Made by a program: the position numbers and the translations under genes. From Acholeplasmataceae bacterium (GTDB lineage: Bacteria; Bacillota_I; Bacilli_A; Acholeplasmatales; Acholeplasmataceae), in contig JAUVXD010000015.1 in assembly GCA_030603805.1 (NCBI GenBank), positions 1 through 33,081 of the forward strand: 33,081 bases of DNA, given 5' to 3'. The notes under the pieces were generated by a model. That model searched no databases and was not told where the DNA came from. It was given only the letters and a program-made list of their open reading frames with translations. Positions 3,001-33,081 of the stretch are shown here, in pieces. Numbering within the stretch: position 1 is the stretch's first letter; each line of letters begins with the position of its first letter.

Positions 3001-4587
3001 AATCCACTCGTGTTTACACCTAAGTTGATGGAAGAAATCGTTGGACTAAATCCAGAAGATTCATCATTATGGGGAAGACCTATCGAGTTGATTGGTTATA
3101 TCATACACGACGAATTTGAAGGCATCTATTTTACAGATAGTTTAGAGAGTAATTATCAAGTTAAAATCAACACACTAGATTATGATTTATATTTTGACCT
3201 CATGATGTATTCGATGCTTGAAATTAAGCTTAAAGGGTATTTAATGCCAAACATGAATGAGCTTGGTATCGATGGCTTTATGCTCTTTGTAGGTGTGGAT
3301 GAAACTCCCGTTTTGCTATATGAAACAGATCAAGAAAAGATGGATGCACTTATTACATTAGGTGAATATGCAATTCAAGGGCCGATTGTTGCTAAAGTTT
3401 ATCTTGAACTCCCAGATGAAATTGATGTCCTAGGTGCAACACTCTATTGGACTCAAGTTGGCGGACCAATGATATTTGATCCAACCACAAAATATGTTTC
3501 TAACGTACCTTCGAGTACTGTCATTACCTTAAGAGCTACAGTCACGATTGGATCACTGACTCAAATGCATGATTTCATGCTCGAAGTATTACCTTTTGTT
3601 GTTTTAAATATTCCAAATTATGAGCATACAGCTATTGATGGATTATTCCCAGGACTCATAGTATATAAGGCAGATTATCGCCCAGATTATTTGTTTGGAG
3701 GTACATACTTTGGTGTCGATCTCGTTTTCCCATACCCAGAATCCATAGGTGCAAGCCACTTTATTTTACAATATTACGATGTTGTTGAAGAGATGTGGAA
3801 AGATGTGATTTATCAAGGGGAACCCTTAAGTACTTACTACTATAACACTTGGGAAGAAGCTTGGATGAATGCTAACAACTTTAGTCTACCTCTTGCTGGA
3901 AACACAACCTATCGATTGAGAGCGGTTGGAACACCAGAAGCGATGTATTCCAATGAAGTATATGTTATGGGTACAACATTAGATACTCAGTTTACAGGAT
4001 GGAACATGGATGGCTCTATGTATTTGACAGGCGTGATGATGCCACAATATGGTCATGGTCTACAGGTGAGTGCAACCGTCTATAACAACGAAACCTATGA
4101 ACTCATTGAAAATGCAGTGATTTATGAATGGTATCGTGTGAATCCATACACCTTTGAAATGACACTGATTTTGGGTGCAGATGATGATTTTTATGTAACA
4201 ACGTTTGAAGATATTGGATATTTGATTATGGCACGCATCAAAGGTGATGGTATTTCAGCAGGAGGATACATCCAAATCATGAGTTGGGAGACTGTTAAAA
4301 TCTTTAATCCAACGCGATTGATTTCATATGATTCGACTGGATTTACTTTAGAGTTCTCTCATCTATTTAATCCATCTGATTTATGGGATATGATTGTCTA
4401 TGATGAGGCATATCAAGTTTTAGAGATTACGGATATCAATCCAACAATGGATCCACTCGTTTTTGAGTTTGTCGTTGATTTATCAGATACAGCACATGTT
4501 TCACTTGAACTTTGGACCTACACTTGGTTCATGGGTAAATCTGGTTTTCATGAGTATCATTGGGGTTATATTGAGTTTGATCTTTAG
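1..4587 (+). CDS. Giant surface protein, InlB repeat then (OB-like, OB-like, Ig-like) x4, 5' partial
   Basis: The frame is open from base 1, so the true start lies upstream; the ATG at 124 falls inside a Listeria-Bacteroides (InlB B) repeat ending in LYAKWE and is not a start. After it, two kinds of module alternate. OB-fold-like units carry a V.GVV core and an ADETG-like turn, near nt 170-430, 455-735, 1030-1290, 1310-1590, 1885-2150, 2170-2450, 2735-2990 and 3010-3315. Atrophied bacterial Ig-like units end in a T.T.G....F...V pattern, near 739-1017, 1600-1875, 2455-2725 and 3322-3595. The C-terminal 330 residues look like more beta-rich Ig/Fn3-type domains, with no LPXTG motif and no membrane helix. 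Such mosaics are known surface or secreted proteins of Acholeplasma-like bacteria; ligand unknown. The architecture was read by eye. No enzyme motif was seen. Confidence 0.8.
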   Translation, partial: TAITQNFGSAVTAPTAPTREGYTFDGWYSNTELTTAYAFTTMPAQNITLYAKWEVLVTYDLISDILLENPTHVKVRGVIYYKYPLPMNPGFYIYDGTGYIYVLSSTEFAVGQGVEFEADFSYFEYTPQLTNVTNLAANSSFTTMPTYENMDLIDIAHSAPNTLALNGKPVIVDGVVQQFGMQYVLLPNFTDAMVFINFKSYQGLADPFFPKVGTRIQIHAVVQGFSPMQDSWHILYQPSSPIVDIVLTDQEKVAEILAKGIEELDGKIFYSGATLNLPNTDPYYSSTILFEPMGDNASFLNTSTGQFSTTEIERAITLRITVTIGLVTNYVDVTIHLHPISTISIQDFKALSDMSYGVVSGVVIFASSDMKIIIIADETGTLAVMCNSSPQYGDLVIVGGYRAAMDGLVIMADESGNTLKEILSNNQEIPIDPLSLSVDDFNSLDPSLPTNWIIYVEITGSVYFDDMTHNFYLDDVNGDLMILAMTTEGRNLLSNYFGFKVKIKGLIFPNFDEGANQLMFVFGGHPNDIEMALSDEELIIEMSLMLKGYLEGQTYYPGQTIELPLEHPYVPITVSYQTSTPALINLLTNQISEDISEPMQIVLEATLTLGIYQEIVLITLTVEPLEILSVQDFIATNGEVSAYVVGVVIFKVQEFNTFYLIADETGILFVPSLWNLEIGTKVLVYGEYFNQDNMPFIRPVISPDPVVEIIAFDQPMPMAPIVLSLTEFIALGISNPYDMFKYYQLEGVLSKLGFDNMYMLDDGIAQVAVFAPLPELQATLDHYLGIHVLISGLGLPMGDEPQMMIVFLGLPNDISLGGDPEEIYTMISNDILNYYASKTFIQGVYHQLPQSLPGIYELEYNKGINGLYYNLETGWISEDISSEMYIEIHVTLTVGDYFDTFDILIHVVPVEALTISQFKAGDLDTLYLVRGVVVYSMFYGSEGGFFILADHTGYLIVPFDLELSIGTECLIEAMVDTVMGVKTMKEGTITVYSELGFGVANPLVFTPKLMEEIVGLNPEDSSLWGRPIELIGYIIHDEFEGIYFTDSLESNYQVKINTLDYDLYFDLMMYSMLEIKLKGYLMPNMNELGIDGFMLFVGVDETPVLLYETDQEKMDALITLGEYAIQGPIVAKVYLELPDEIDVLGATLYWTQVGGPMIFDPTTKYVSNVPSSTVITLRATVTIGSLTQMHDFMLEVLPFVVLNIPNYEHTAIDGLFPGLIVYKADYRPDYLFGGTYFGVDLVFPYPESIGASHFILQYYDVVEEMWKDVIYQGEPLSTYYYNTWEEAWMNANNFSLPLAGNTTYRLRAVGTPEAMYSNEVYVMGTTLDTQFTGWNMDGSMYLTGVMMPQYGHGLQVSATVYNNETYELIENAVIYEWYRVNPYTFEMTLILGADDDFYVTTFEDIGYLIMARIKGDGISAGGYIQIMSWETVKIFNPTRLISYDSTGFTLEFSHLFNPSDLWDMIVYDEAYQVLEITDINPTMDPLVFEFVVDLSDTAHVSLELWTYTWFMGKSGFHEYHWGYIEFDL

Positions 4588-17865: not shown

Positions 17866-17870
17866 GCTTA

Positions 17871-17900
17871 AATGCCACTCAACTTTGGGTGGCATTTTTT
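17871..17900 (+). terminator. pdh operon terminator
   Basis: AATGCCAC (17871-17878) pairs with GTGGCATT (17889-17896), and T6 (17895-17900) follows the stem. It lies five bases after the pdhD stop. Confidence 0.9.
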
Positions 17901-17985: not shown

Positions 17986-18015
17986 ATGATAACGTTTTTA
18001 TGTAAGCGTTGACAT
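17986..18015 (+). promoter_or_regulatory. Two overlapping cre-like (CcpA) operators
   Basis: ATGATAACGTTTTTAT (17986-18001) and ATGTAAGCGTTGACAT (18000-18015) each match 15 of 16 positions of the published cre consensus WTGNNARCGNWWWCAW. Their central CG pairs are 14 bases apart. The second contains the -35 hexamer of the downstream promoter, so a bound CcpA-type repressor would block RNA polymerase. A local LacI-family regulator is an alternative; none is encoded in the window. Confidence 0.65.
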
Positions 18016-18038
18016 GCAACTATATCTTATGATATAAT
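18009..18038 (+). promoter_or_regulatory. Promoter of the pectate-utilisation operon
   Basis: Perfect TTGACA (18009-18014), an 18-base spacer and perfect TATAAT (18033-18038). It gives a leader of about 40 bases before the first gene. It is the best promoter seen between 17900 and 31600. Confidence 0.8.
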
Positions 18039-18084
18039 AGTAATTGTAAACACCGTCCGTATATATAGACAGATGGAGACAGAC

Positions 18085-19524
18085 ATGAAACGACTGATTT
18101 TTCTGATTTTACTGGCTTTTGTAGGCATCATCATGGCGGGATGCCAAGCCATAGACAACATAGATACGGTAGTTCCTTCCGACCCCACAGATGAGCAACC
18201 AAATGAGACACCTCAAGTAGATTTCAGATTATTCGAGCACTCATTTGGCTTTTCTTCGCTTATAGTGACCTCAAGAAGAGAGATAACTGAAGGTGTTTAT
18301 GAGGTTAATAGCGAAATCGAGTTTTTAGATGCACTCATGGCACCTGATGCAAAAATCATTGAAATTAAAAGTGATTTAAATCTTGGATCGATTGAAGTTG
18401 AAACCATGCTTTCTCAAGCAGGTAAAACTTTAAATGATTATCGAAATGTCTACAGAAGACATTCTAGACAGCCACTCATGCATCCGATTTTAAAAGAAAC
18501 AGGTGTAGGGATTGTTAGAATCGTTTTGAGAAATAACTTGATGATTTATTCAAAAACAGGGCACCAAATCAAACACACTGCATTTTTAATTGATGGATCC
18601 ACAAATATCGTAATTCGTAATCTACATTTCTCAGAACTTTGGGAATGGGATGAAATAACTGCTGGAAATTATGACCGCAATGATTGGGATTACTTCACAG
18701 TCGAAAAATCCAATGGTGTATGGTTTGATCATCTTACTTTTGATCAAGCTTATGATGGCATTATTGATGTTAAAGAAGACGGTAGAAATTTAACCCTATC
18801 TTGGTCGAAACTAAACTTTAAACCGAACGCATTCATTGAGGCACAAATCGACTATTTAGAAGAAAATATCTGGAAATATCCTTATTATCAAAGTTTTAAA
18901 GATTTAGACATTTCTAGAGAAGATATGATTCTTTACTCAAGTTTTCAAAAGAAGGGCTTCAATTTAGGCAATTCTACAGATGGTGAGGGCTTTGAATCTA
19001 TCACATTTACGTTTCATCACCTTGAAATCTACAATCTGATGGACCGAATGCCTAGACTTAGAAAAGGCGATGTCCATGTTTATCACATTATCTTGGATAA
19101 CTCAGACATTCACAATCTCAGATTAAAGCATAACACCAATTTAAGGATTACCAATCAAGGCATTGTCTCAACAGAAGATGGTGCAGTCTTGATGGAAAAT
19201 AGTCTTTATATATTAGTAACAACACCCATTCGAAATCACCAAGACTCAAGAATAGATTCAAAATATACAGGCAAATATAAAGTCATCAATAGCGAAATGG
19301 TCTTATCAAATCGAACATATTTTGGATCATCCGATGATCAAAATTCACTTTGGGTACATAGTAATACACATGAGCTTATACCTTTCGCATTTAGAAACCA
19401 TGAAACACTGCCTTATTCGTATCAACTTCAAGATGTGTTTTATTTAAGAGAAACATTCGTAACTTATCCAACGGGTCATCAAACGATTGATGACTTTAAC
19501 TGGTTAAAGATAAATGAAAATTAA
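18085..19524 (+). CDS. Surface lipoprotein pectate lyase, polysaccharide lyase family 1-like
   Basis: Predicted to cleave polygalacturonate by calcium-dependent beta-elimination at the outer face of the membrane. A lipoprotein signal ends in the lipobox IMAGC, with lipidated C20. The body is a right-handed beta-helix with PL1 landmarks: NIVIRNLHF, then DHLTFDQAYDGIIDVKE followed by LSWSKL, giving acidic candidates for calcium binding at D215, D224 and D228. RMPRLRKGDVHVYH (from R321) matches the PL1 catalytic Arg region. Length 479 is slightly larger than many PL1 enzymes. Start is ATG 18085 with GGAG six bases away; the ATG at 18073 precedes that site. It is first in an eight-gene operon. 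Pectin rather than pectate as substrate cannot be excluded. Confidence 0.8.
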   Translation: MKRLIFLILLAFVGIIMAGCQAIDNIDTVVPSDPTDEQPNETPQVDFRLFEHSFGFSSLIVTSRREITEGVYEVNSEIEFLDALMAPDAKIIEIKSDLNLGSIEVETMLSQAGKTLNDYRNVYRRHSRQPLMHPILKETGVGIVRIVLRNNLMIYSKTGHQIKHTAFLIDGSTNIVIRNLHFSELWEWDEITAGNYDRNDWDYFTVEKSNGVWFDHLTFDQAYDGIIDVKEDGRNLTLSWSKLNFKPNAFIEAQIDYLEENIWKYPYYQSFKDLDISREDMILYSSFQKKGFNLGNSTDGEGFESITFTFHHLEIYNLMDRMPRLRKGDVHVYHIILDNSDIHNLRLKHNTNLRITNQGIVSTEDGAVLMENSLYILVTTPIRNHQDSRIDSKYTGKYKVINSEMVLSNRTYFGSSDDQNSLWVHSNTHELIPFAFRNHETLPYSYQLQDVFYLRETFVTYPTGHQTIDDFNWLKINEN

Positions 19525-19549
19525 ACCTATATTAAAGGAGCAAAAACCT

Positions 19550-20890
19550 ATGAAAAAAATCATATTACTGATGGCGATACTCTTCACATCACTTGTTTTA
19601 GTTGCATGTGGTAGCAACAGAAATGATGATTCTGTCATCACATTTGCATGGTGGGGAACATCGGATCGAAATATCGCAACCTATCGCGCTATCGAATTAT
19701 TTGAAGCGAAATATCCGCAATATAAAGTTCAAGCTGACCAATCCCCATGGTCTGGTTATCAAACCACTTTAAATAACAGACTGAATCGTGGTACAGAAGC
19801 AGATGTCTTCCAAGTTAACTATAATTGGATTTATTCCATGTATGGTGAAGACTATTTTATGGACATTACTGAATTAGGATTAGATTTATCGAACTATCCA
19901 GCTAATGAACATACACCACTCACTGTGAACGGAAAAATCTTAGGATTATCTGTTTCAGAAACAGGATATATCTTTTATTTAAATAGAAGCTTATACGAAG
20001 CTGCAGGCTATGATTTTTCAGACCCAAATAACTTCCCCATTAAGACTTGGGATGATCTCATGGATGCTGGACAAGCGATTCAAGCTGTAGATCCAAATGC
20101 ATACGCCATTGGTAGATTGGATCCTCAACAAGTTGCGATGCTCATGTTTACATATCTTGCACAAACTACAGGTAAAGCATTAATTAATTCAAATAATCAA
20201 CTGAACTTTACACAAGCTGAACTGGTTGATGCGTTTAATTTCATCTCAGATTTAAGAAGTACAGGTGTCTTAATTGCATCGAACTCCATTGATACCCATA
20301 ATGATGGACCTACAAATCCCAACTGGGTAGCAGGAAGATACGGTGGTGTCATGACATGGAATACAGCCATTTCTGAATATCAAAATACACTACCCCCAAC
20401 AACATCTTTAGTCACAGCAGGTATGTTCCAACAAACTGCTGATGAAGAAGAAAACTTTGGGATGTATAAAAAAGTTTCTATGGCTTATGCAGTTTCAAAA
20501 CGTGTTGAACAATCAGATGCAAAGAAAGAAGCAGTTAAGACTTTCCTTGAATTTATGACCACAGATCCAGAAGCAGTTGCGATTTTAGGTGTTGACCGTG
20601 GTGTTTCAAATAATAGCATCACACAAAACATCTTAACAGCAGTCACAACCACTGACTTTACTCAAACTTTAGAATGGCAAGGTCATGAATTTGTACAACG
20701 TACCTATGCCGCACAAGTTTCAAATGGCATTAACTTATACATTCACCCTTATTATGAGCATGCAACCTTTAGAGCGATTTATGAGGCACCGATTGAAAAC
20801 TTCCTATTAGGTCGTTCTACAGCAACGGTAGCTGCAACCAATATTGTTAATCGTTTTAATACGGAGCTTGCTAGAGTTATCGGAGGATAA
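19550..20890 (+). CDS. Sugar ABC transporter solute-binding lipoprotein (family 1)
   Basis: Membrane-anchored binding protein that should capture the oligosaccharide released by the lyases and pass it to the two permeases encoded next. The signal ends in LVACG, lipidated C20. The mature N-terminus ITFAWWGTSDRN and the later TEADVFQVNYNW and ETGYIFYLNRSLYEAAG are standard for extracellular solute-binding protein family 1. The tail EAVKTFLEFMTTDPEAVAILG is the usual helix before the hinge. Length 446. Start is ATG 19550 with AAAGGAG; an ATG at 19514 overlapping the previous gene would spoil the signal peptide. The two-base gap to the permease gene fits co-expression. The oligogalacturonate ligand is inferred from neighbours. 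Confidence 0.9.
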   Translation: MKKIILLMAILFTSLVLVACGSNRNDDSVITFAWWGTSDRNIATYRAIELFEAKYPQYKVQADQSPWSGYQTTLNNRLNRGTEADVFQVNYNWIYSMYGEDYFMDITELGLDLSNYPANEHTPLTVNGKILGLSVSETGYIFYLNRSLYEAAGYDFSDPNNFPIKTWDDLMDAGQAIQAVDPNAYAIGRLDPQQVAMLMFTYLAQTTGKALINSNNQLNFTQAELVDAFNFISDLRSTGVLIASNSIDTHNDGPTNPNWVAGRYGGVMTWNTAISEYQNTLPPTTSLVTAGMFQQTADEEENFGMYKKVSMAYAVSKRVEQSDAKKEAVKTFLEFMTTDPEAVAILGVDRGVSNNSITQNILTAVTTTDFTQTLEWQGHEFVQRTYAAQVSNGINLYIHPYYEHATFRAIYEAPIENFLLGRSTATVAATNIVNRFNTELARVIGG

Positions 20891-20892
20891 GC

Positions 20893-21774
20893 ATGGTCGG
20901 AGAGAAAAAGTGGGTACCCTACGTCCTTTTAGGACCATGGATTATTGGGTTTCTACTCTTTAAACTATATCCTTTCATCAGCTCGTTTTTCATGAGCTTA
21001 TATGAGACCAGAGGTAGAAATTCTACCTTTGTTGGTCTTGCTAACTATGCACAGCTATTTGATACGAGCCAATTTATTGGTGAGCAGTTTATGAATTCAC
21101 TCAAAGTGACATTCATTTATGTATTCTTTACCGTACCACTCATTTTAATTGTAAGCTTACTGATTGCCTACGTATTAGCTCTTAAACTCAAAGGTGTTGG
21201 ATTCTTTAGAACCGCATTTTACATGCCAACCGTTTTAGGAACTAACGTTGCGATTATCGTCTTATGGAGATTTATTTTTAGAGATGACGGATTAATCAAT
21301 CAGTTCATCATGATTTTTGGATTATCTCCTGTTTCATGGCTTGGAACATCAGGTGGCGCAATGGCCAGTCTGGTGACCTTGCGTGTTTGGCAGTTTGGTT
21401 CTACCATGCTCATTTTCTTAAATGCTTTAAAAAATGTGCCTGAATCCTTATATGAAGCAGCAACGATCGATGGTGCAGGTAAATTTAGACAATTTTTCTC
21501 AATTACCATTCCCATGATTACACCGATTATCTTATTTAATGCCGTTATGCGTTTGGTTGAAACATTTCAGGTCTTTAATGGCCCAGCTCTGATTACACAA
21601 GGTGGACCTGCAAATTCAACGAGAGTTTTAAACTTACTTATCTATCAAATTGCCTTTGATGGCGGTAACTTGAATTTAGGTGCAGCCATGTCATGGATTT
21701 TATTCTTAATCATTATGGTATTTACCGTCCTCATATTTAGATCGTCTAAATATTGGGTTCATTACCAGGACTAA
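20893..21774 (+). CDS. Sugar ABC transporter permease 1 (MalF/UgpA-like)
   Basis: Inner-membrane half of a CUT1-type carbohydrate importer, 293 residues with about six hydrophobic helices. The start PYVLLGPWIIGFLLFKLYPFISSF is a common opening for this family. The cytoplasmic EAA loop, the docking site for the ATPase, is EAATIDGAGKFRQFF from residue 188. GGAGG lies in the end of the preceding gene and the ATG follows. The matching ATPase is not encoded here; many Gram-positive CUT1 systems share one MsmX-type ATPase encoded elsewhere, and that is the likely arrangement. Confidence 0.92.
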   Translation: MVGEKKWVPYVLLGPWIIGFLLFKLYPFISSFFMSLYETRGRNSTFVGLANYAQLFDTSQFIGEQFMNSLKVTFIYVFFTVPLILIVSLLIAYVLALKLKGVGFFRTAFYMPTVLGTNVAIIVLWRFIFRDDGLINQFIMIFGLSPVSWLGTSGGAMASLVTLRVWQFGSTMLIFLNALKNVPESLYEAATIDGAGKFRQFFSITIPMITPIILFNAVMRLVETFQVFNGPALITQGGPANSTRVLNLLIYQIAFDGGNLNLGAAMSWILFLIIMVFTVLIFRSSKYWVHYQD

Positions 21775-21785
21775 GGAGGACCTAT

Positions 21786-22694
21786 ATGACAAACGCACAA
21801 TTAAGAATTCAAAAACATCGTATTAAAAAGACTTCAATTGAAGTTATTAAGTATTCAATCATTATTGTTGCAGCACTTGTGATGCTTTATCCCTTAGTTT
21901 GGATTATTGGTGCATCCTTTGATGCAAGTCAAACCTTCTCATTTGGGTTTTTGCCAAGAGAATTTACTTTGATTGGCTGGAAGGAATCGCTCTCCGCACC
22001 GGGTTGGGGTAGTGCACAAGGATATTCTCTACTTAGAGCGCTATGGAATACGTTACAGTTTACGATTCCGGAAGTCCTCTTTGGCACATTTTCTTGTCTG
22101 ATTTCAGCTTATGTCATTACACGCATGCATTTTAAAGGAAAGAAACTTATCTTCTCACTCGTGATTGGAACACTCCTCATGCCATCGACCATCTTTAGAA
22201 TTCCAATGTATGCATTTTGGACCAGTCCAACGCTTGCACCACTCTGGGAAGGATCAACTGCACCCTTTATGCCATATCTCCCCTTATGGGCAGGTTCGAT
22301 GTTTGCGATTAATTCATTTTCAATCTTTATGTTCATTCAATTTTTTAGAACTATCCCAAGAGATTTAGATGAAGCAGCATATATGGATGGTGCTAATAAA
22401 TTTCAAGTCTTATTTTATGTACTCATGCCAATCTTAAAACCGATTGTCATGACAGTGGCACTTTTGATGTTCATTTCAGCATTTAATGATTATCAAGGAC
22501 CACTTATTTATCGAGGGGCAGTATCGACATATCCATTATCGTTAGTTTTACCATCTTTAGGTTTGGATTCAACCAATACATATGCCCATGTTTATGCAAG
22601 ATCGATTGTCTCAGTATCACTCTTAATCATCATTTTCTTCTCAGCTCAAAAATATTTTGTGGGCAATGATGCTGATTCAGCCATTAAAGGATAG
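21786..22694 (+). CDS. Sugar ABC transporter permease 2 (MalG/UgpE-like)
   Basis: Second membrane subunit of the importer, 302 residues, six predicted helices. It opens with a basic cytoplasmic tail, then a YPLVWIIGASF helix usual for MalG-like proteins. The EAA motif is EAAYMDGANKFQVLFYVLMP from residue 196. Start is ATG 21786 with AAGGAGGA at the stop of permease 1; an in-frame upstream codon at 21753 lies inside permease 1 without a ribosome site. It pairs with the preceding binding protein and permease. It ends 14 bases before the next lipoprotein gene. Confidence 0.92.
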   Translation: MTNAQLRIQKHRIKKTSIEVIKYSIIIVAALVMLYPLVWIIGASFDASQTFSFGFLPREFTLIGWKESLSAPGWGSAQGYSLLRALWNTLQFTIPEVLFGTFSCLISAYVITRMHFKGKKLIFSLVIGTLLMPSTIFRIPMYAFWTSPTLAPLWEGSTAPFMPYLPLWAGSMFAINSFSIFMFIQFFRTIPRDLDEAAYMDGANKFQVLFYVLMPILKPIVMTVALLMFISAFNDYQGPLIYRGAVSTYPLSLVLPSLGLDSTNTYAHVYARSIVSVSLLIIIFFSAQKYFVGNDADSAIKG

Positions 22695-22708
22695 AAAAGA
22701 GGTACGTT

Positions 22709-23575
22709 ATGAAAAGAAAATTAACAGCACTCATCTTAATTCTAGGACTTATTTTAAGTGCTTGCACAGAAGCGAAAACACCAAATACACCTGTCAATCT
22801 TGAAGATTATGGATGTAAGGATACACCGCTTGCAGAAGGATGCTTTGTCCCATCTGAGGATTTAGACTTTATCTCTGCAACACCAGAAGAATACTTAATC
22901 AATGAGACATTTGATACTGAACGTGTTGGATCAAATCCAAGAAACTGGTTACTCTATAGAAACCAAGAGTATGCGGTAGACGGTGTTAGAACTGTTATTG
23001 CAGAAGAAGCGGGTGGCAATCGTTTTGTCAGAATGTTTTCTGATGGACTTAGAGCACCGATGTATCCACAATCTGCACCAACACCAACGTTTATTTTCAC
23101 GACCAAGTTTAATTTAGACCAAGATCGTAAAGGTGTTGCGTACGCAAACATCATGATTCCAACTGACGTACAAGCAAACGCAGTCACAGTTGGGGTTGCT
23201 ACTGGCGCAGTCAACACCATTGGTGTAACCATTGGTCAAGATCAAAAGTTATCAGTAAGAGTTGGTGGACCATTCTTCTATTATTCAGGTTCAGGTGACG
23301 GTGGAGAAACTATATCAACCAATGTCACCATTACTAAAGGTAGTTGGTATACCTTTAAGTTTGAATGGGATGCATCAACCAACGTGATTGCAGCTTACCT
23401 CATTCAAGGAGAAATGGCAACACTTCTTTATTCAGGACCATTTCATATTAGTAGCAGATTTAATGCAACTGCAAATGGTTTCATTTTAGTCCCTAACGTC
23501 ATTCGTGTCACAATGCCAAGATACAGTTCTGGTTGGGCATATTTAGATAACGTTATTGTGGAAAGAAAGGGGTAA
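22709..23575 (+). CDS. Jelly-roll (LamG/ConA-like) lipoprotein, putative glycan-binding
   Basis: A 288-residue lipoprotein with lipidated C19 (ILSAC). A short N-terminal spacer carries a Cys pair (YGCKDTPLAEGC) that may form a disulfide. From LINETFDTERVG to YLDNVIVER the protein reads as one beta-sandwich: the closing DNV.VE and the ITKGSWYTFKFEWDASTN segment are typical of concanavalin/LamG-like lectin folds. The same order of motifs recurs in residues about 191-401 of the giant lipoprotein four genes of this operon later (LINETF, then NQWYRLRAEID, then YITNIVANRVE). No catalytic residues were recognised. Best guess is a surface glycan-binding protein for pectin; a weak enzyme or structural role is possible. 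Confidence 0.65.
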   Translation: MKRKLTALILILGLILSACTEAKTPNTPVNLEDYGCKDTPLAEGCFVPSEDLDFISATPEEYLINETFDTERVGSNPRNWLLYRNQEYAVDGVRTVIAEEAGGNRFVRMFSDGLRAPMYPQSAPTPTFIFTTKFNLDQDRKGVAYANIMIPTDVQANAVTVGVATGAVNTIGVTIGQDQKLSVRVGGPFFYYSGSGDGGETISTNVTITKGSWYTFKFEWDASTNVIAAYLIQGEMATLLYSGPFHISSRFNATANGFILVPNVIRVTMPRYSSGWAYLDNVIVERKG

Positions 23576-23579
23576 ACCT

Positions 23580-25355
23580 ATGAAAAAAATCATTTTAACC
23601 CTCATTTTCATCGCAACCATTCTTTTTGTTCCATCTATCAGATTAGAAGCGGCTGACCAGAAGATTGTTTATACCGAGTCCGATTATCAAAGATTACACG
23701 CAGTCATTCAGCATGTTGAAAATATTTTAAAGTATGGTGGCGATTATAATCCAAATACAGCTTTATTACCGGATGCCATTAATACACTCACAGGCGAACC
23801 AGCAAGATGGACATTTCCTAATCGTGCACAAGTGCCTTACGCAAATTTAGCGAATCAACAAAACTTCTTTAGAACTTTAGTTGCATTAACCAATGTGACA
23901 GGGTCTCCTAAGTATAAAAATGCAGCTGTTGATATATTAACTGAGTTTATGAGAGATTACCAAAATGTCAATGGACTCTTTCATTGGGGTGGACATCGTG
24001 CGATCAATTTAGATAATATGGAAGTTCAATCCTTTGAAGGACCTAATGGACCTCATGAACTTAAAAACATGATGCCTTATTACGAACTCATGCTTGAAGT
24101 TAATGAACAAGCGACTTTAAGATTTATGAAGCAACTTTGGACAGCACATTTCTACTGGTCATCAACCGATATGAATCGACACGGTTCATATTCAACCGCA
24201 TTTGACACCAACGTTTTTGGACAAACCATTCCAGAGCATGTCATACAGTTTGATAACCAAGGCATGCCAATTATTCCCGCAGATTCCCCAGGATTACTCC
24301 CATTCGTTAACTCTGCAACAGATTTAGCTTATGCAGCGTATACCTTATCACATCATACTGGAGATCCAATTCCAGCCGATTGGGCATTTTATTTGATGAG
24401 TCAATACAACCGAGCATCTCATCCCATTACTGGTATGACGGTTTATCAATATAAATCAACAGCAGTGACTAGATCACCACTCGAATGTGCAGATCCTGCT
24501 TATACCAATTCAGGATGTGGTGACCGTGTTGCAAGACAATTTAGAGATTTTGGTCCTATAGCTAGAGAATCGAATGTGGCATGGAAAAACACACAAGCTG
24601 TTTATGTCGATAACATTCTCATGCTACTAGAAGCAGCAGATAAATATGGTGTCACAGATTTTGTCGATTGGGCAAGAACCTATCTTGAAGGCTATCTAGA
24701 ATATGCCTATATTAGAATTGATGGACAAAATAAGATTATCCCGATGTTTATTGATGGCACAGTTACTTATGGATATGTCGTACCTGAAGTGGGTTATTTT
24801 GGACCTTCTAATATGAGATTAGATTATGTCAGTATGCCAACAACTTACTTATTACCGATTTTAAGAACCATTTTGCAGACACCAAATCCTGAAAACAGAG
24901 TGAAACTTTGGACCTATTTTAGAGATATTGTCTATTCTTACGGCTTAGGTGATATTGGAGAACTTGGTGGTGCTAAACCAAACTTAAACATTGATACAGC
25001 TATTGATGATCCGTTCGCACTTATGACCATGGTTGAACTTTATGATTACACCAAGAATATTGCCTATCTTGAAGTAGCAAGAACGATTGGAAATAATATC
25101 GTTCGTGAAAAATTCCATCGCGGATTCTTCGTAGATAGTGAAATTATGCTTTATAGCAGATTAGACCAACCAGATACACTCGCACTCTTAACATTAGATG
25201 CCGTGATTCGTGGTATTCCCATGAATCAAATGCCATTCTATTTAGCAGATTCAGGGTATATTCATGGTTATTTATTAGCAGATGATGGTGTCGTAGAAGA
25301 TCGAAGCTATACACAAAATATGATCTACACCAAAACAATTTTTGATTGGGAGTGA
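23580..25355 (+). CDS. Secreted exo-pectate lyase, polysaccharide lyase family 2-like
   Basis: A 591-residue protein with a Sec signal (residues 1-26) and no lipobox, so probably released or loosely held. The sequence resembles PL2 pectate lyases, which have an alpha-barrel fold and trim polygalacturonate from the end, giving unsaturated digalacturonate. The metal-site pattern known for PL2 is present in order and nearly the right spacing: H139 in HWGGHRAIN, E160 in PHELKN, and R200-H201 in MNRHGSY (catalytic Arg then metal His). C303 and C313 could form a disulfide. Start is ATG 23580 with GAAAGGGG in the end of the previous gene. Known PL2 enzymes are mostly from Gram-negative plant and gut bacteria. 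Family assigned from motifs by eye; other alpha/alpha-barrel lyases are the alternative. Confidence 0.7.
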   Translation: MKKIILTLIFIATILFVPSIRLEAADQKIVYTESDYQRLHAVIQHVENILKYGGDYNPNTALLPDAINTLTGEPARWTFPNRAQVPYANLANQQNFFRTLVALTNVTGSPKYKNAAVDILTEFMRDYQNVNGLFHWGGHRAINLDNMEVQSFEGPNGPHELKNMMPYYELMLEVNEQATLRFMKQLWTAHFYWSSTDMNRHGSYSTAFDTNVFGQTIPEHVIQFDNQGMPIIPADSPGLLPFVNSATDLAYAAYTLSHHTGDPIPADWAFYLMSQYNRASHPITGMTVYQYKSTAVTRSPLECADPAYTNSGCGDRVARQFRDFGPIARESNVAWKNTQAVYVDNILMLLEAADKYGVTDFVDWARTYLEGYLEYAYIRIDGQNKIIPMFIDGTVTYGYVVPEVGYFGPSNMRLDYVSMPTTYLLPILRTILQTPNPENRVKLWTYFRDIVYSYGLGDIGELGGAKPNLNIDTAIDDPFALMTMVELYDYTKNIAYLEVARTIGNNIVREKFHRGFFVDSEIMLYSRLDQPDTLALLTLDAVIRGIPMNQMPFYLADSGYIHGYLLADDGVVEDRSYTQNMIYTKTIFDWE

Positions 25356-25359
25356 TGAC

Positions 25360-25821
25360 ATGAAAAAAATATTATTCCTATTAACATTATTATTTTCTGG
25401 ACTCATTTTAATGGGTTGTCAAGAGGGTGAGCCATCTGATGAAACGATTGCTATCGATCAAACATTTAGATTACTTATGGAAGCCGAAGATTTATCAGGT
25501 ATGGCCGATAAGACAAAAACAGTCATTAGAACCGCTGGAAGCTTAGGTTTACCAACCTCATATCAAGGGGTTCAAATTACTTATAGTTCTAGAAATAAAG
25601 ACATCATTAATGATCAAGGTGTGGTCACACTACCTACGGAATGTTGGATTGAATCTAGAGATCAACAAGGTGTTTCAAGAAGTCAGTTTAATAATTTAAA
25701 TGATAATTGGCCTGTTGTTGTTGATGTGACCTTAACATACCAAGGTCAAACCAGAACTGCCAAATTGTTATTCGTTGTAGCTCCTATTGAGGGGTTTACA
25801 TGCAATAAATATTTAGGATAA
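25360..25821 (+). CDS. Small lipoprotein, single atrophied Ig-like domain
   Basis: A 153-residue lipoprotein with lipidated C20 (ILMGC). The mature part is one atrophied bacterial Ig-like domain: AIDQTFRLLMEAEDLSGM start, a YQGVQITYSSRNKDIINDQGVVTLP core, and a VDVTLTYQGQTRTAKLLFVVAP end. The same domain occurs directly after the first InlB repeat of the next gene (AVDTTFDWLSIGDLS start). Two extra Cys, one in TECWIE and one near the C-terminus, may pair. Start ATG 25360 has GGGAG across the previous stop. Not recognised as a known family beyond the fold; it may be a spacer, partner or substrate-binding accessory of the giant lipoprotein. Confidence 0.6.
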   Translation: MKKILFLLTLLFSGLILMGCQEGEPSDETIAIDQTFRLLMEAEDLSGMADKTKTVIRTAGSLGLPTSYQGVQITYSSRNKDIINDQGVVTLPTECWIESRDQQGVSRSQFNNLNDNWPVVVDVTLTYQGQTRTAKLLFVVAPIEGFTCNKYLG

Positions 25822-25831
25822 GGGAGGATTT

Positions 25832-28800
25832 ATGAGAAAAGTACTAAGTTTAATCACGATTTTACTTGTCGGATTTGTACTCGTCGCGTGTGGCAGAGAT
25901 ACCTATACGGTCACGTTTGAGTCCAATGGCGGCACAGCAGTCACTGCTTTAACAAATGTCGCAAAAGATGCAACAATTACTGCACCTACTGCGCCAACAA
26001 GAGCAGGATTTGTTTTTGTGGGTTGGTTTAAGGAAAGTACCTTAGTCAACCAGTGGAATTTTGCAACAGATAAAGTGAATTCAAACATTACACTTTATGC
26101 CAAGTGGGATACTGCAGGTCCAACGGACCAACAGGCTGTTGATACGACATTTGATTGGCTATCGATCGGTGACCTTTCAGCACTGACCAATCAATCGCCA
26201 CGTCTGATTTTACCCACAGTTTATCAAGCACAAGGTGTTAATATTTCTTGGGTGATTGATAAACTTGCCTTTATTGCAGCCAATGGTGTGATTACACAAC
26301 CAACACATGAACAAGGCACTCAAACAGTCACACTCACCGCAACACTGACTAAAGGATCAGTGACTAGAACTAAAGTATTTACGGCAACTGTTTTAGCGTT
26401 GCCTCCAATTTCTGAGACGATTCCTTTAATTAATGAGACCTTTAATTATGCGAATGGTGATATCTTAACCCAATCGACCATTTGGGGTCCTGTTTCTGGT
26501 AAGACTGGGTCATCACTTTTTACAGTGGTTGACACAGCACCACAAGCGATTCCAGGTGGATCTAAAGCTTTAAAGATTGAAGCATTTACAGAACTACAAA
26601 TTGAAGCACCTATTGCACACACTTACGATTTAGTTGTGATTGAAGTTGATGTGATGCAAACTGCAACTACAAATGCATCTTCAATTCATATTCAATCATC
26701 ATCCTCATCTCCCGTTGTGGCTTTCGGATTAAATGGAAGAAACTTATACTATAGAGTAGATAATGGTGCTCAAATTGGCATTCCAATTGAAGTAAATCAA
26801 TGGTATAGATTAAGAGCGGAAATTGATCTTGTTTCAAAAACACTTCAAGTTTTTTACTATGATAATTCAAATAATCAGCTTATTCAGATTACACCAGCAC
26901 CTGTTCCGTTCACTGGATCAACAAACTACCAGAGCATATTTATTAGATCTGGCTCTTCAGATACTGATACATTGCGACCACCTGCATATATAACAAATAT
27001 TGTGGCTAATCGAGTTGAAGCTTTACCCAGACCAACAGAACTTGTAGCACTAGGTGAAGTGACTGGGATTAGACCATCTGTAACTTTTGAAGCAGGTAGT
27101 GAATTTATCGTTGATTCACCGATTGTTAAAAATATTTATGGAACTCAAAGAGTATTAGTAAAAGATACTGATTATACCCTTTTAGTGACAAATCCTGTTG
27201 ATATTAACAATCCAGGAACTTACACAGTTACTTATACCCTTACAAGCATTTCCAATCCAAATAATACAAAGGTTGTAACGCAAGAAGTTGTTGTTTACTC
27301 TGTCGGAGAGCCTAATGAAATTACAGCATCAACTACATCAATTGTGGGTTATTTAGATGGTACAACGGATGTCACGATTACATCAATTCAACCTTCAGGT
27401 ATTCTATATTATCTACTAAGTTCAAATGAAGTTGAAACTGCTGAAGCGATTCTTTTAGGAGATTCAGTTGAAATCACATCTAATATTACTTCGATTAATG
27501 ATATTGTTGTGGGTAATGCAACACATATTCACTTCATGATTGTTTTAAATGGCAATTCAAATATTGTTTCAAGAGCTATTACGCTTGAGACTGTTCAGCA
27601 AATCACTACTAGAGAACAGTTTCATCAAATGGCAACAACTGAAAATAGCAACTCATATATATTGATGTCAGATTTAGACTTCTCTGGTTTTAATTGGGTT
27701 ACATCTAGTTCTGTATTTAGAGGCAAACTCTATGGAAATTCGCATATCGTATCTAATATAACAATAACTAGTACAGCTCAATATGGTGGTATATTCTCTA
27801 GAGCAAATGGAGCTTATATTGAGAATTTAATACTTGATAATATCACAATTGTATCAAGTTCAAGAACCGGTGCAATTATTGGCAGAGCAGAAAATAACCC
27901 CACAACTTTAAAAAACGTTGTTCTAATGAGTTCTAGCATAACAGGTGCTGGAGGAGATGGTGTTGGAGGAGTTATCGGTCAAGTTGCAACGCCAGTTTAT
28001 ATCAGCAATCTTGCCGTCATTGACACGAACGTTTTTAGTTCGGATGCAAGAAGTATTGGGGGAGTAGTTGGTAGAATTGCAACGGGAACACCCACTGTTG
28101 GTAAACTCTTCTTGAGTGATATATATTTAAATGGTGTCACAGTAACTACTGAAACAGCAAATACTGATATGGGCGCTTCTTTACTCGTCGGAAGAACAAG
28201 TGATGTTGATGGTATTATCATTGAAGGACAAAGAATAATTATTGTTAACTCAAGTGTACAGGGTATATATGGTGGTGCATTAGTTGGAAGAATACAACAT
28301 CCAACAAATGTTTCTATTGGTTATGGTGTAACTCTTATAGATGTATATGTTAACGTCACATTCATAGGTACATTAAGAAGTGGTTTAGTTGGTAGAATAG
28401 AAAGCGAACTTTATTTGATAAATGAGGATACCATCTTTGGCAACTTAGAAAACTCAATTGATCATCCAACTACACAACCGTTAACAAAACAGTCTATTCC
28501 AGAAAATCAAGCATGGTGGAGCACAAATCTTCCAGCATTCGTTTCTAACCCACTTTGGGTATTCGATGATAATGCGACATTTGCTTTAGTGATTTATAAA
28601 GATTCAAGCAGACCAATGTTTGATGTCACATTAGATTACAATGTGGATATGCCAAATGAAGTGATTCAAGTTCGTGAAGGCAATGTATTTGGATATGGTG
28701 CACCTATTGTTGAAGGGTATAACTTTGTTGGATGGTTCCTAGATGCTACCATGACCAATGCACTTCCAGAAGGTTATACTGTAACTGAAGCAGTGACACT

Positions 28801-31531
28801 ATATGGTAAATATGAAGCACTGCCTACCTATACGGTATCATTTGAAACAAGTGGTGGTTCAGCAGTTGCTGATATCACTGGTGTTTTTGAAAATGCATTA
28901 ATTACTGCTCCATCAAATCCAACGAGAGATGGTTATACTTTCGAAGGCTGGTATAAAGAAGCAGAACTTGTTAATTTATGGAATTTTGCAACGGATGCAG
29001 TTACAGCCAATACAACACTTTATGCAAAATGGGAAGAAATTCCTGCAGTAAAATTTACTGTAACATTCGAATCTAATGGCGGAACTATGATTGATCCAGT
29101 GGTGATTGGTGAAGGTTTAGTCATTCCTGAACCAGCTACTCCAGTAAAAGATGGTTTCGTATTTGTAGGTTGGTTTAAAGAAGTAGAACTCACAAATCTT
29201 TGGGATTTTGATGTTGATATAGTCACGGCAAACATCACACTTTATGCGAAGTGGGATGAAATTCTTCCAACTGAAATTCATACCGCTCAAGAATTCTATG
29301 ATATGACAATCAGTGGTTCTGATGGCATCTTCTTACTGATGAATGATATTGATTTTTCAGGATTTACATGGACACCAACAGCAACCACCCCACCAGCATT
29401 CAAGGGAACACTTGAAGGTAATGGATTTATAATTAGCAATATCAATATTCAAATTCCAAGTCCAGTGACTGATCAATTTGGAGGTATTTTCTCTAGAGTT
29501 GATGGGGCTGTGATTAGAGATTTATTCATTTATAATATTACAGTGAACACTACACAAAGAGCAGGCGGACTCATTGGACGTATCATGGGTGAAGGTGCAT
29601 TAATTGAGAATATTGTTGTCAGTAACGCAACCATATCCGGCGCTGATGGCAATGGTGTTGGTGGACTAGTTGGTTTAGTTTCAGCATATACAGAGATTTA
29701 TAATGTTGCAATTATCAATTCAAGCATCGTTAACAGTCAAAGAAATGTTGCAGCATTTGTAGGTCGTGTCGATTCAGCACCGCTTTATGCTGATGACATC
29801 TTCATTAAAAATACAACTGTAGAATCTACATTTACAACATCATCTAGTGATACTGGTGCAGGTGCAGTTGTCGGTTATATTAGAGACCATGCATCAAGTT
29901 TATTTAGTGGTATACGCATTGTTGTGCTTCAAACAACAGTGACTGGACCATCAACAGGTTTACTTGCTGGATATGTAAGATTCCCAGGCACCATGGATGT
30001 TATGGATGTTTATCTACAAGGATCCAATGTTGGTTCAAGAACTGGCCTTGTGGGTTATTGGAGAGATCAAGTCGTTGCACTTGATCAATCAACGGTATTT
30101 GTTACACTTGGAACAAATACACCACATTCACAAACGCTACAACCAGCTAACATTGTCACAGTACCTTCAGATCTTGCATGGTGGAATACCAATCTTTCAG
30201 CATTTGTATTATCAGATTTATGGACTGTTAAAGCTGATGGTTCTATTGAACTTGCATTATTAACACCACAAGGTGAAGAACCAGTTGACCCCGTGACTTT
30301 CACGGTGACATTTAATTCAAATGGCGGTTCAACAGTTACTGAAGCAATCATTGAAGAAGGTGGGTTAATAACAGCTCCAGCTATACCAACTAAAGAAGGT
30401 TATTCATTTGATGGTTGGTATAAAGAAGCAGAACTAACAAATCTTTGGGTATTTGAATCTGATGTAGTAACTTCAGATATAACACTATATGCTAAATGGG
30501 ATGAAGTCATTGTTGATCCAACTCCAGTAGGTACTGCAATTACATCAGTTCAAGAATTTTATAATATGGCAACTGGTCATTCAGAGTGGCCACTTAGCGG
30601 AACATATTATCTTGCAAATGATCTTGATTTTACAGGGTTTACATGGATTTGGGTTAATAACACTGTATTCACAGGTGTACTTAACGGTAACAACAAAACC
30701 ATTAGTAATTTAACCATTGTTTCATCACAGGATCGTGCAGGAATATTCTATGGATTTAGAGGCACCATGAAAAACATTAAGTTTGATTCTGTGTCTATTT
30801 CATCATCAATAAATGCACGAGCAGGACTCATAGCTGGTGAAGTAACCACAGTTGCAGTTGTTTTAGAAAATATCTCAGTTAAAGGTTTAACACTATCAGG
30901 AAATAACTCAAATGGTGTTGGTGGGTTGATTGGGTATCTAAATAATGCTGCAACTGTAAGTAATATTTCTATGACAAACTCAACCATAACTAATGGGACT
31001 ACAGCGACTGGTGGACTATTCGGTAGAGTTGGTGATTCAAATGCTGCATTTAACATTTCCATTCATGATGTTTACATGAATCAAGTTACTGTTCAAGGTA
31101 CAAATCGTGTGGGTAGTATTTTAGGCGAAAGCAATGGTTCTTCTGGATATATTGTTGTCACTTCTGCTCGTGTTGTTTTATCAAACATGACGATTAATGC
31201 ATCATCAGGCAATGCAGCTGGTTTCTCTGGCCGTCATCAGTCTAATCCATCCGGGCTAGGAGTTCTCAATGATATTTACTTCCAAGGAACAATCACAGGA
31301 ACATCAGTTAATCATGTGACTACTGATCGGAAATATCAATCTATTACTAATTTCTGGTTCTTTGGTACACTTACAGGCACTCTTAATACAAATGGAGAAG
31401 GAACTTCAAATATTCTTACTGAAGCTCAAAACACTGCATGGTGGGATACGCATTTTGCATCTTTAGAAGCATCTTCTTTATGGGTATTTAATGAAACACT
31501 CAATGTTTATAGATTGATTAATGCACAATAA
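25832..31531 (+). CDS. Giant lipoprotein, InlB repeats and three GLUG-type beta-solenoid modules
   Basis: A 1899-residue surface lipoprotein, lipidated C20 (VLVACG). By nt: InlB (Listeria-Bacteroides) repeat 25900-26110; atrophied Ig-like domain 26125-26400; jelly-roll domain 26405-27035, alike to the lipoprotein gene at 22709; Ig-like 27040-27320; GLUG-type module A 27590-28600; three InlB repeats 28617-29265; GLUG module B 29270-30270; InlB repeat 30298-30505; GLUG module C 30530-31531. Each GLUG module opens with T..EF..M and a DLDFSGF-like strand, runs through repeats such as GGLIGRI and GGVIGQV, and closes with AWW.T.L.AF...LW.F. No enzyme motif was found. Modules like these occur in adhesins and cell-surface glycan-binding proteins. 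Operon position suggests binding plant cell wall or pectin (inference). InlB and GLUG copies could recombine in frame. Confidence 0.8.
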   Translation: MRKVLSLITILLVGFVLVACGRDTYTVTFESNGGTAVTALTNVAKDATITAPTAPTRAGFVFVGWFKESTLVNQWNFATDKVNSNITLYAKWDTAGPTDQQAVDTTFDWLSIGDLSALTNQSPRLILPTVYQAQGVNISWVIDKLAFIAANGVITQPTHEQGTQTVTLTATLTKGSVTRTKVFTATVLALPPISETIPLINETFNYANGDILTQSTIWGPVSGKTGSSLFTVVDTAPQAIPGGSKALKIEAFTELQIEAPIAHTYDLVVIEVDVMQTATTNASSIHIQSSSSSPVVAFGLNGRNLYYRVDNGAQIGIPIEVNQWYRLRAEIDLVSKTLQVFYYDNSNNQLIQITPAPVPFTGSTNYQSIFIRSGSSDTDTLRPPAYITNIVANRVEALPRPTELVALGEVTGIRPSVTFEAGSEFIVDSPIVKNIYGTQRVLVKDTDYTLLVTNPVDINNPGTYTVTYTLTSISNPNNTKVVTQEVVVYSVGEPNEITASTTSIVGYLDGTTDVTITSIQPSGILYYLLSSNEVETAEAILLGDSVEITSNITSINDIVVGNATHIHFMIVLNGNSNIVSRAITLETVQQITTREQFHQMATTENSNSYILMSDLDFSGFNWVTSSSVFRGKLYGNSHIVSNITITSTAQYGGIFSRANGAYIENLILDNITIVSSSRTGAIIGRAENNPTTLKNVVLMSSSITGAGGDGVGGVIGQVATPVYISNLAVIDTNVFSSDARSIGGVVGRIATGTPTVGKLFLSDIYLNGVTVTTETANTDMGASLLVGRTSDVDGIIIEGQRIIIVNSSVQGIYGGALVGRIQHPTNVSIGYGVTLIDVYVNVTFIGTLRSGLVGRIESELYLINEDTIFGNLENSIDHPTTQPLTKQSIPENQAWWSTNLPAFVSNPLWVFDDNATFALVIYKDSSRPMFDVTLDYNVDMPNEVIQVREGNVFGYGAPIVEGYNFVGWFLDATMTNALPEGYTVTEAVTLYGKYEALPTYTVSFETSGGSAVADITGVFENALITAPSNPTRDGYTFEGWYKEAELVNLWNFATDAVTANTTLYAKWEEIPAVKFTVTFESNGGTMIDPVVIGEGLVIPEPATPVKDGFVFVGWFKEVELTNLWDFDVDIVTANITLYAKWDEILPTEIHTAQEFYDMTISGSDGIFLLMNDIDFSGFTWTPTATTPPAFKGTLEGNGFIISNINIQIPSPVTDQFGGIFSRVDGAVIRDLFIYNITVNTTQRAGGLIGRIMGEGALIENIVVSNATISGADGNGVGGLVGLVSAYTEIYNVAIINSSIVNSQRNVAAFVGRVDSAPLYADDIFIKNTTVESTFTTSSSDTGAGAVVGYIRDHASSLFSGIRIVVLQTTVTGPSTGLLAGYVRFPGTMDVMDVYLQGSNVGSRTGLVGYWRDQVVALDQSTVFVTLGTNTPHSQTLQPANIVTVPSDLAWWNTNLSAFVLSDLWTVKADGSIELALLTPQGEEPVDPVTFTVTFNSNGGSTVTEAIIEEGGLITAPAIPTKEGYSFDGWYKEAELTNLWVFESDVVTSDITLYAKWDEVIVDPTPVGTAITSVQEFYNMATGHSEWPLSGTYYLANDLDFTGFTWIWVNNTVFTGVLNGNNKTISNLTIVSSQDRAGIFYGFRGTMKNIKFDSVSISSSINARAGLIAGEVTTVAVVLENISVKGLTLSGNNSNGVGGLIGYLNNAATVSNISMTNSTITNGTTATGGLFGRVGDSNAAFNISIHDVYMNQVTVQGTNRVGSILGESNGSSGYIVVTSARVVLSNMTINASSGNAAGFSGRHQSNPSGLGVLNDIYFQGTITGTSVNHVTTDRKYQSITNFWFFGTLTGTLNTNGEGTSNILTEAQNTAWWDTHFASLEASSLWVFNETLNVYRLINAQ

Positions 31532-31559
31532 AGATAAAATAAAGATTGACTAGATTTCT

Positions 31560-31600
31560 AATAAGAGTTGCGATTGATTTCGCAACTCTTATTTCTTTTA
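31560..31600 (+). terminator. Terminator of the pectate-utilisation operon
   Basis: A perfect 14-base stem, AATAAGAGTTGCGA (31560-31573) with its complement at 31580-31593, loop TTGATT, then a T-rich tail. It is the only strong plus-strand terminator found from 18085 to 31600, which supports one transcript. Confidence 0.9.
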
Positions 31601-32025: not shown

Positions 32026-33081
32026 TTAACCTCCGGGATCTCTTAAGAAAGAGTAGTCTAAGTTGAGTCTCATGGTGTGGCCGCATGAGCACAAGATAGG
32101 GTGGTACGTATAGATTGATTTTAACATAAAGCGCCAGTTCATGCGCGAGCGCTTGAGCTTAATGTGGGCAGCGGAAAGCATTTTTTTAAACGCGGAAACA
32201 ACCTTCTTCGATTTGTTGGCGTAGAAACCGAAGTAGCGAATGGTGTGAAAGTTTTGATCGGGGATGTGAACGACGAGCCTAGCGATGAAGCGAAAGACGT
32301 GCTCGGTGACCACCTGTCTACCGAGATAGGAGGGGTCATCCTTGGATTTATGGTCGTCCTCATGAGGATCATAGCACCAGGTGAGCTGATGAGTTAAAGG
32401 GTCAAGCGATAGTATTCTCTCCTCAGAAATCGCGGGGCGAGAGGCGTAGCGCGTGATATAATCAGAGACTTTTTTGGCCGAGTTGAGGAGGCCGTAGTCC
32501 TTCAGCTGAGGGCCGTGGGCATAGAAGCCTTTCTTATACTTAGCGGTGAGAAAGTTTCTCAAGCGGTTGAAGCGATGATAGGTGTCTTTGGGGGCATGAT
32601 CTTTCAAATGATTTGAGATATTTCTAAGGAGAGCAAGCTGGAAATAAAGTCTGAGCTTCTCAAAATGAAAGTAAGAAAACTTTCGCAAGGTTTCATGAAT
32701 ATCGAGCGTCCTTTCGGCAACGAGGACGTGGATGTGAGGGTTGAACTTGAGGTCGCGACCGAACGTATGTAGAAAGGCGATGAGACCTAAGCGACGATCC
32801 TCCTTCACAGCAACTTTGGATGAGAAAACAAGTGATTGTAAGGCTTCGTTGACAGAGGAGAAAAGAACATCAAAGAGACCTCGGTAAAGCCTGAAGTAAT
32901 CCCTGAGTTCCTTAGCGATGGAAAAGACGAAATGGCGATGAGGTACATCTAAAAGTTTTGACTGAACAGCGAGGGTACGCCTCTCTCTGTAGCGCTGGTT
33001 GCAGGAGACACAAAACCTCGAGTGGCAGGAGAGACCTTGAAGATGAAACTGATCGCACGAAGGGCATTCGAAAAAGAGATA
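32026..33081 (-). CDS. IS91-family transposase (Zn-binding N-terminus, HUH/Y2 nuclease), 5' partial
   Basis: The frame stays open to base 33081, so at least 91 more codons precede the internal Met at 32808, and the start lies beyond the window. Near the window end the frame shows a CPSC and then CHSRFCVSCNQRY, the zinc-binding domain usual for IS91/IS801 transposases. Next are DVPHRHFVFSIAKELR and HTFGRDLKFNPHIHVLV, with the metal-binding HUH motif as HIH. The two catalytic tyrosines appear in YITRY (32446-32460), equal to the YxxxY of IS91. Stop is TAA at 32026. All expected catalytic parts are present in the visible portion. It should mediate rolling-circle transposition. The gene is GC-richer than its surroundings, suggesting recent transfer. 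Confidence 0.9.
   Translation of the reverse strand, partial: YLFFECPSCDQFHLQGLSCHSRFCVSCNQRYRERRTLAVQSKLLDVPHRHFVFSIAKELRDYFRLYRGLFDVLFSSVNEALQSLVFSSKVAVKEDRRLGLIAFLHTFGRDLKFNPHIHVLVAERTLDIHETLRKFSYFHFEKLRLYFQLALLRNISNHLKDHAPKDTYHRFNRLRNFLTAKYKKGFYAHGPQLKDYGLLNSAKKVSDYITRYASRPAISEERILSLDPLTHQLTWCYDPHEDDHKSKDDPSYLGRQVVTEHVFRFIARLVVHIPDQNFHTIRYFGFYANKSKKVVSAFKKMLSAAHIKLKRSRMNWRFMLKSIYTYHPILCSCGHTMRLNLDYSFLRDPGG

Follow-up and report, generated by a model that had tools for sequence, protein, structure and literature searches.

A pectate utilization operon in wall-less Acholeplasmatales with candidate lipid-anchored capture modules

How a cell that has neither a wall nor a periplasm keeps its secreted enzymes, and the products that these enzymes release, is a general question raised by a locus of an Acholeplasmataceae bacterium, in which lyase and importer genes for pectate stand together with those of three accessory lipoproteins. 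To our knowledge, polysaccharide degradation is rarely associated with free-living Mollicutes. Literature searches turned up no relevant work on the use of pectin by Mollicutes, and the description of Peloplasma aerotolerans makes no mention of pectin. The window analyzed here (the whole stretch of 33,081 nucleotides of contig JAUVXD010000015.1, assembly GCA_030603805.1) comes from a genome within the genus-level group of this species. The genome of P. aerotolerans (G027, locus L053) holds the whole operon, which provides a testable prediction on its diet.

Eight genes on the plus strand (18073 to 31531) form one transcription unit (18009 to 31593), as indicated by a consensus promoter and by terminators at both borders. 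The promoter (18009 to 18038, plus strand) is a perfect sigma-70-type consensus of the form TTGACA-18-TATAAT with an extended TG, the sole 12/12 match in the region, and lies ca. 35 bases 5' of the first gene, just past the terminator (17870 to 17897) of the preceding pyruvate dehydrogenase (PDH) operon. A strong intrinsic terminator with a 14-pair stem and a T-rich tail (31560 to 31593, plus strand) closes the unit. The first gene encodes a pectate lyase lipoprotein (Pectate_lyase_4, 18073 to 19524; nearest solved structure 5gt5, E 3e-78), followed by an ABC importer with a substrate-binding lipoprotein (19514 to 20890, the start being probably at 19550) and two permeases (20893 to 21774 and 21753 to 22694); there is no ATPase gene within the operon. 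The nearest solved relatives of the binding protein are 2uvg/2uvh (E 6e-34), which we take to be the oligogalacturonide-binding TogB of Yersinia. The second half comprises a lipoprotein of 288 aa named here JR (22709 to 23575), a PL2-family pectate lyase (23580 to 25355), a small lipoprotein with a stand-alone aBig_2 domain (25360 to 25821), and a giant lipoprotein of 1,899 aa (25832 to 31531, lipobox C20). JR has its lipobox at C19, a conserved cysteine pair (C36/C45), and a β-sandwich domain at residues 60 to 288 (22886 to 23572). The giant contains five List_Bact repeats, an aBig_2 domain (residues 96 to 192; 26117 to 26407), a concanavalin A (ConA)-like domain named here GD (residues 197 to 396; 26420 to 27019), an Ig-like domain, and repeated blocks matching Peptidase_M26_N.

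As to the setting, an IS91-type transposase (Y2_Tnp plus a zinc-binding domain; 32026 to 33081, minus strand), cut by the contig end, lies just 3' of the operon. Another very large protein (1 to 4587, plus strand), is open at the contig start, and a single List_Bact repeat, N-terminally placed, is its only convincing Pfam match. At L055, a TetR-type regulator (3523 to 4158) precedes the operon, and open reading frames of similar size (ca. 205 to 210 aa) are found ahead of it in G043, G032, G044, and L056; in the window, the interval from the PDH genes to the operon contains no such gene.

The pectin context that had been suspected for this locus is supported. The PL2 protein belongs to its family (PF06917, E 1e-158, 529.5 bits, 490 of 491 positions covered), and its nearest solved structure is the exopolygalacturonate lyase 5a29 (E 3.5e-106), with which the RHGSYS motif is aligned and kept. 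The same genome encodes two GH88-family proteins as well as KduI and KDPG aldolase, the genes of the last two being ca. 4 kb apart on one contig.

The order JR-PL2-aBig-giant was kept wherever the contig is long enough to show it, among 19 loci from the Acholeplasmatales and other orders of the class; L057 lacks the first lyase gene next to the operon. Within a class-wide sample of 395 genomes, JR was present in nine, all of which also carry PL2, while PL2 was found above the cutoff in 12. The contig of one of the three genomes without JR starts within PL2, which is followed by aBig and the giant. The other two, G303 and G356, have a divergent PL2 (37 to 39% identity), and as JR is absent from the DNA available for them, JR does not accompany every PL2 of the class. 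These divergent enzymes (L076 and L078) look like lipoproteins and have neither JR nor aBig as neighbors. Outside the clade, a phylum-wide profile search for JR returned one chance-level match only (G606, E 0.007). The aBig and GD domains of the giant are generally better conserved than its repeat blocks, with the exception of GD in G041 (38%). The length of the giant varies among relatives from ca. 1,200 to 1,990 aa, by loss or gain of List_Bact/GLUG-like blocks on the C-terminal side.

The initial annotation had proposed, from a shared order of motifs, that JR and nucleotides 26405 to 27035 of the giant gene (residues 192 to 401 of the protein) carry the same domain. The gene coordinates were correct and the motifs exist in both proteins: the LINETF opening, the W-centered strand (GSWYTFKFEWD in JR and NQWYRLRAEID in GD), and the closing strand (AYLDNVIVERK and AYITNIVANRV), which sit on equivalent first, central, and last strands. 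Pairwise BLASTP between JR and the giant matched only the signal-peptide region (E 0.06). The relationship emerged from profile-profile comparison: with the first alignments of 15 JR orthologues (A1) and 13 GD sequences (A2), hhalign gave an E value of 2.4e-4, and with the enlarged sets (19 and 17 sequences) a score of 37.8 and a P value of 5.6e-5. As controls, reversed profiles and those of other operon parts reached at best a P value of 0.031, and the maximum score of 400 column-shuffled GD profiles was 27.5, versus 37.8 for the real one. The global alignment covers both domains end to end with 17% identity and follows the same path from the LI.ETF opening through the W-centered strand to the closing Y..N...R strand. 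In hhalign tests, kinship of JR with the GLUG-like or Ig-like parts, or with any other part of the operon, was rejected.

The structural comparison agreed with the profiles. The AlphaFold model of GD had a mean pLDDT of 92.8, while that of JR was only moderately confident (pLDDT 73.3, pTM 0.79). Both predicted models have the same fold, with the topology of the ConA-like lectin/glucanase superfamily over the full domain according to Foldseek and VIA-align, and the best match of each in VIA-align was residues 413 to 614 of BT_1020 (5mqr), with Z 17.1, rmsd 3.0, and 174 aligned residues for GD and Z 16.5, rmsd 3.0, and 178 aligned residues for JR. The claim of one shared domain is thus borne out by profiles and by the shared best structural match, and the relationship is not trivial by sequence. 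The proposal of a new family does not extend to a new fold, since both domains are, according to the models, ordinary ConA-like β-sandwiches. By sequence, neither domain found a significant match in the PDB, as single sequence or as profile, and no CBM family was matched above the cutoff by either. The JR and stand-alone aBig families are unnamed above the cutoffs in Pfam or NCBIfam, the latter offering no usable family for either of them.

The ConA-like fold is common to hundreds of chains, and the remaining VIA-align rows at Z 14 to 15 included GH131, GH16, CBM66, calreticulin, legume lectins, GH43 accessory domains, and alginate lyases, a diversity of neighbors from which the fold alone cannot name a function. 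The likeness between JR and GD could therefore be generic to this huge superfamily, silent about a joint role or a recent common origin within the operon, to which we would give slightly less than even odds. Such a reading gains from the comparison with a weak GD relative at L029 (genome G003), a protein cut by the contig start, the C-terminal domain of which is assigned by Pfam to PF22585 (E 8e-8): hhalign related GD to this domain with a P value of 4.4e-8 and JR with only 0.003. It loses from the best solved match that JR and GD share over their full length and from their co-occurrence in the same conserved operon. Identity among orthologues is ca. 40 to 83% for JR and for GD, versus ca. 17% between the two. 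By these profiles, a CBM-type accessory module from a different system is a closer relative of GD than JR is, which argues that the two are old, deeply diverged members of one superfamily rather than copies made within the operon or spare copies of one new family. The generic reading is probably largely true for their history, concerns history more than function, and fits a common role in pectate use. The L029 protein adjoins a GH115 gene, and the region (L029:3-2673), with its PKD and Sialidase-like CBM domains beside the GH115-family protein, is another glycan system with ConA-like modules in the family Acholeplasmataceae.

The link between the small lipoprotein at 25360 and the Ig-like domain of the giant, also advanced in the initial annotation, proved to be stronger than that of JR with GD. 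BLASTP between the small lipoprotein and the giant gave an E value of 9e-5, and hhalign against residues 96 to 192 a P value of 1.3e-8 (probability 95.5%, 38% identity). The giant belongs to aBig_2 (PF20578) with 59 bits at residues 123 to 189 (E 4e-16 for the domain), while the small lipoprotein scored 20.8 bits, under the cutoff of 27. The latter has a conserved insert (CWIESRDQQG...LNDNWP) and a cysteine pair, C95 and C148, present in all orthologues but one; both cysteines are lost together in G147, which suggests a disulfide. Of the initial annotation, the shared fold, the shared Ig-like domain, and the single operon are thus supported. The broader idea that the operon encodes the front domains of the giant also as separate parts is not supported in that form, as JR and GD are ca. 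17% identical, GD is nearer to the PF22585-type module, and the insert and cysteine pair of the stand-alone aBig are absent from the copy in the giant.

What do these accessory proteins do? All three, together with the binding protein, have lipoboxes, and should thus be exposed on the outside of the single membrane, as far as can be predicted from sequence. In nearly all loci the PL2 lyase starts with an ordinary signal peptide and shows no clear lipobox; being unanchored, it would be lost from a wall-less cell unless held, and this favors a capture layer. In the account that we prefer, at a probability of roughly 60%, the operon lets an Acholeplasmatales cell, which lacks a wall, use pectate at its surface. 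The lipid-anchored pectate lyase and the secreted PL2 lyase would cut polygalacturonate, the TogB-like protein and the two permeases would bring the oligogalacturonides in, and GH88-type hydrolases, KduI, and KDPG aldolase would complete the breakdown in the cytoplasm. JR, the aBig lipoprotein, and the aBig-ConA front of the giant, close to the membrane, would be noncatalytic modules anchored beside the importer, with the repeats of the giant extending outward. They may capture pectate and its fragments, perhaps also the unanchored PL2 enzyme, and products would thereby be kept from diffusing off a cell without wall or periplasm. Pectate capture at the cell surface is the most likely role of these three parts, and we infer glycan binding from context, as well as the ligand, the topology, and the retention of PL2 by the capture layer. 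JR, an uncharacterized but well-conserved family, and the stand-alone aBig are hence candidate pectin-binding modules. It seems less likely than not to us that a membrane-bound capture layer, made of stand-alone ConA-like and Ig-like lipoproteins and of these two domain types in the giant, takes the place of the periplasm or wall of other pectin feeders and holds both the polymer and the unanchored lyase beside the importer, with JR as the founder of a new pectin-binding family.

Several features sit less well with this account. All JR and GD sequences are acidic (pI 4.1 to 6.2), which is not expected of, and counts against, simple polyanion binding. Lyases and glucanases, too, adopt the ConA-like fold; some of them rank high among the matches of JR and count against a role restricted to binding. 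The lack of a CBM family match above the cutoff for JR or GD and the moderate confidence of the JR model also weigh against it. JR might be an enzyme, a ConA-like lyase or hydrolase with a pectin side chain or oligouronides as its substrate, and only GD a binder. Its top Foldseek matches include the glucuronan lyase 2zzj, the β-glucanase 7eo3, and PL7 alginate lyases; Aly36B scores Z 15, and ca. 60 of 229 positions are invariant in 15 orthologues, including Y, H, K, N, and D residues and the GGPFFYYSGSGD region. ConA-like lyases (PL7, PL20, and PL36) are structural neighbors of the predicted JR model, yet JR has no sequence match above the cutoff to any lyase or hydrolase family. The top structural lists are filled by lectins, GH16, GH131, and PL7, and the best match in VIA-align is the inner domain of BT_1020, with similar scores for many lectins and binding modules. 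We regard a catalytic JR as unlikely.

We would assign a similarly low chance to JR and the aBig lipoprotein acting mainly as protein-protein scaffolds, by which PL2 and the giant would be docked at the importer, with glycan binding secondary or absent. The mostly lipobox-free PL2 is always encoded between JR and aBig, while the divergent enzymes of relatives without these neighbors carry a lipobox instead, and the insert of the stand-alone aBig is strongly conserved, with a cysteine pair that is lost jointly in one relative. Gene order alone, however, does not demonstrate contact between proteins, and pectate capture at the surface remains our preferred reading.

Among known families and systems, Pfam aBig_2 (PF20578) is the family closest to the small lipoprotein and the second domain of the giant, of which the stand-alone version has the conserved insert and cysteine pair that the copy in the giant lacks. 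PF22585 (Sialidase-like, CBM) is connected to GD through the profile relationship with the L029 domain, but neither JR nor GD matches it above the curated cutoff in Pfam scans, and there is no match to it in the genome. The inner ConA-like domain of BT_1020 is the full-length best structural match of both, at 8 to 13% identity. In BT_1020 this domain belongs to a large enzyme, whereas here JR is a stand-alone lipoprotein and GD a domain of a giant repeat lipoprotein. YeCBM32 of Yersinia, a stand-alone polygalacturonate binder suggested to retain the polymer for depolymerization (PMC5651945, PMC7843439), is a functional analogue as an exported single-module binder, but it belongs to CBM32 and is periplasmic and not lipid anchored, whereas the predicted fold of JR is ConA-like and its sequence does not match YeCBM32. 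Lastly, pectate utilization loci with PL2 and TogB share with the operon the PL2 lyase, the TogB-like binding protein, and the KduI/KDPG pathway. The difference is that the locus here belongs to wall-less bacteria and is one operon with three accessory lipoproteins; the fold of the modules was already known, and the arrangement is a fresh version of a familiar type, a pectate utilization operon adapted to a wall-less cell.
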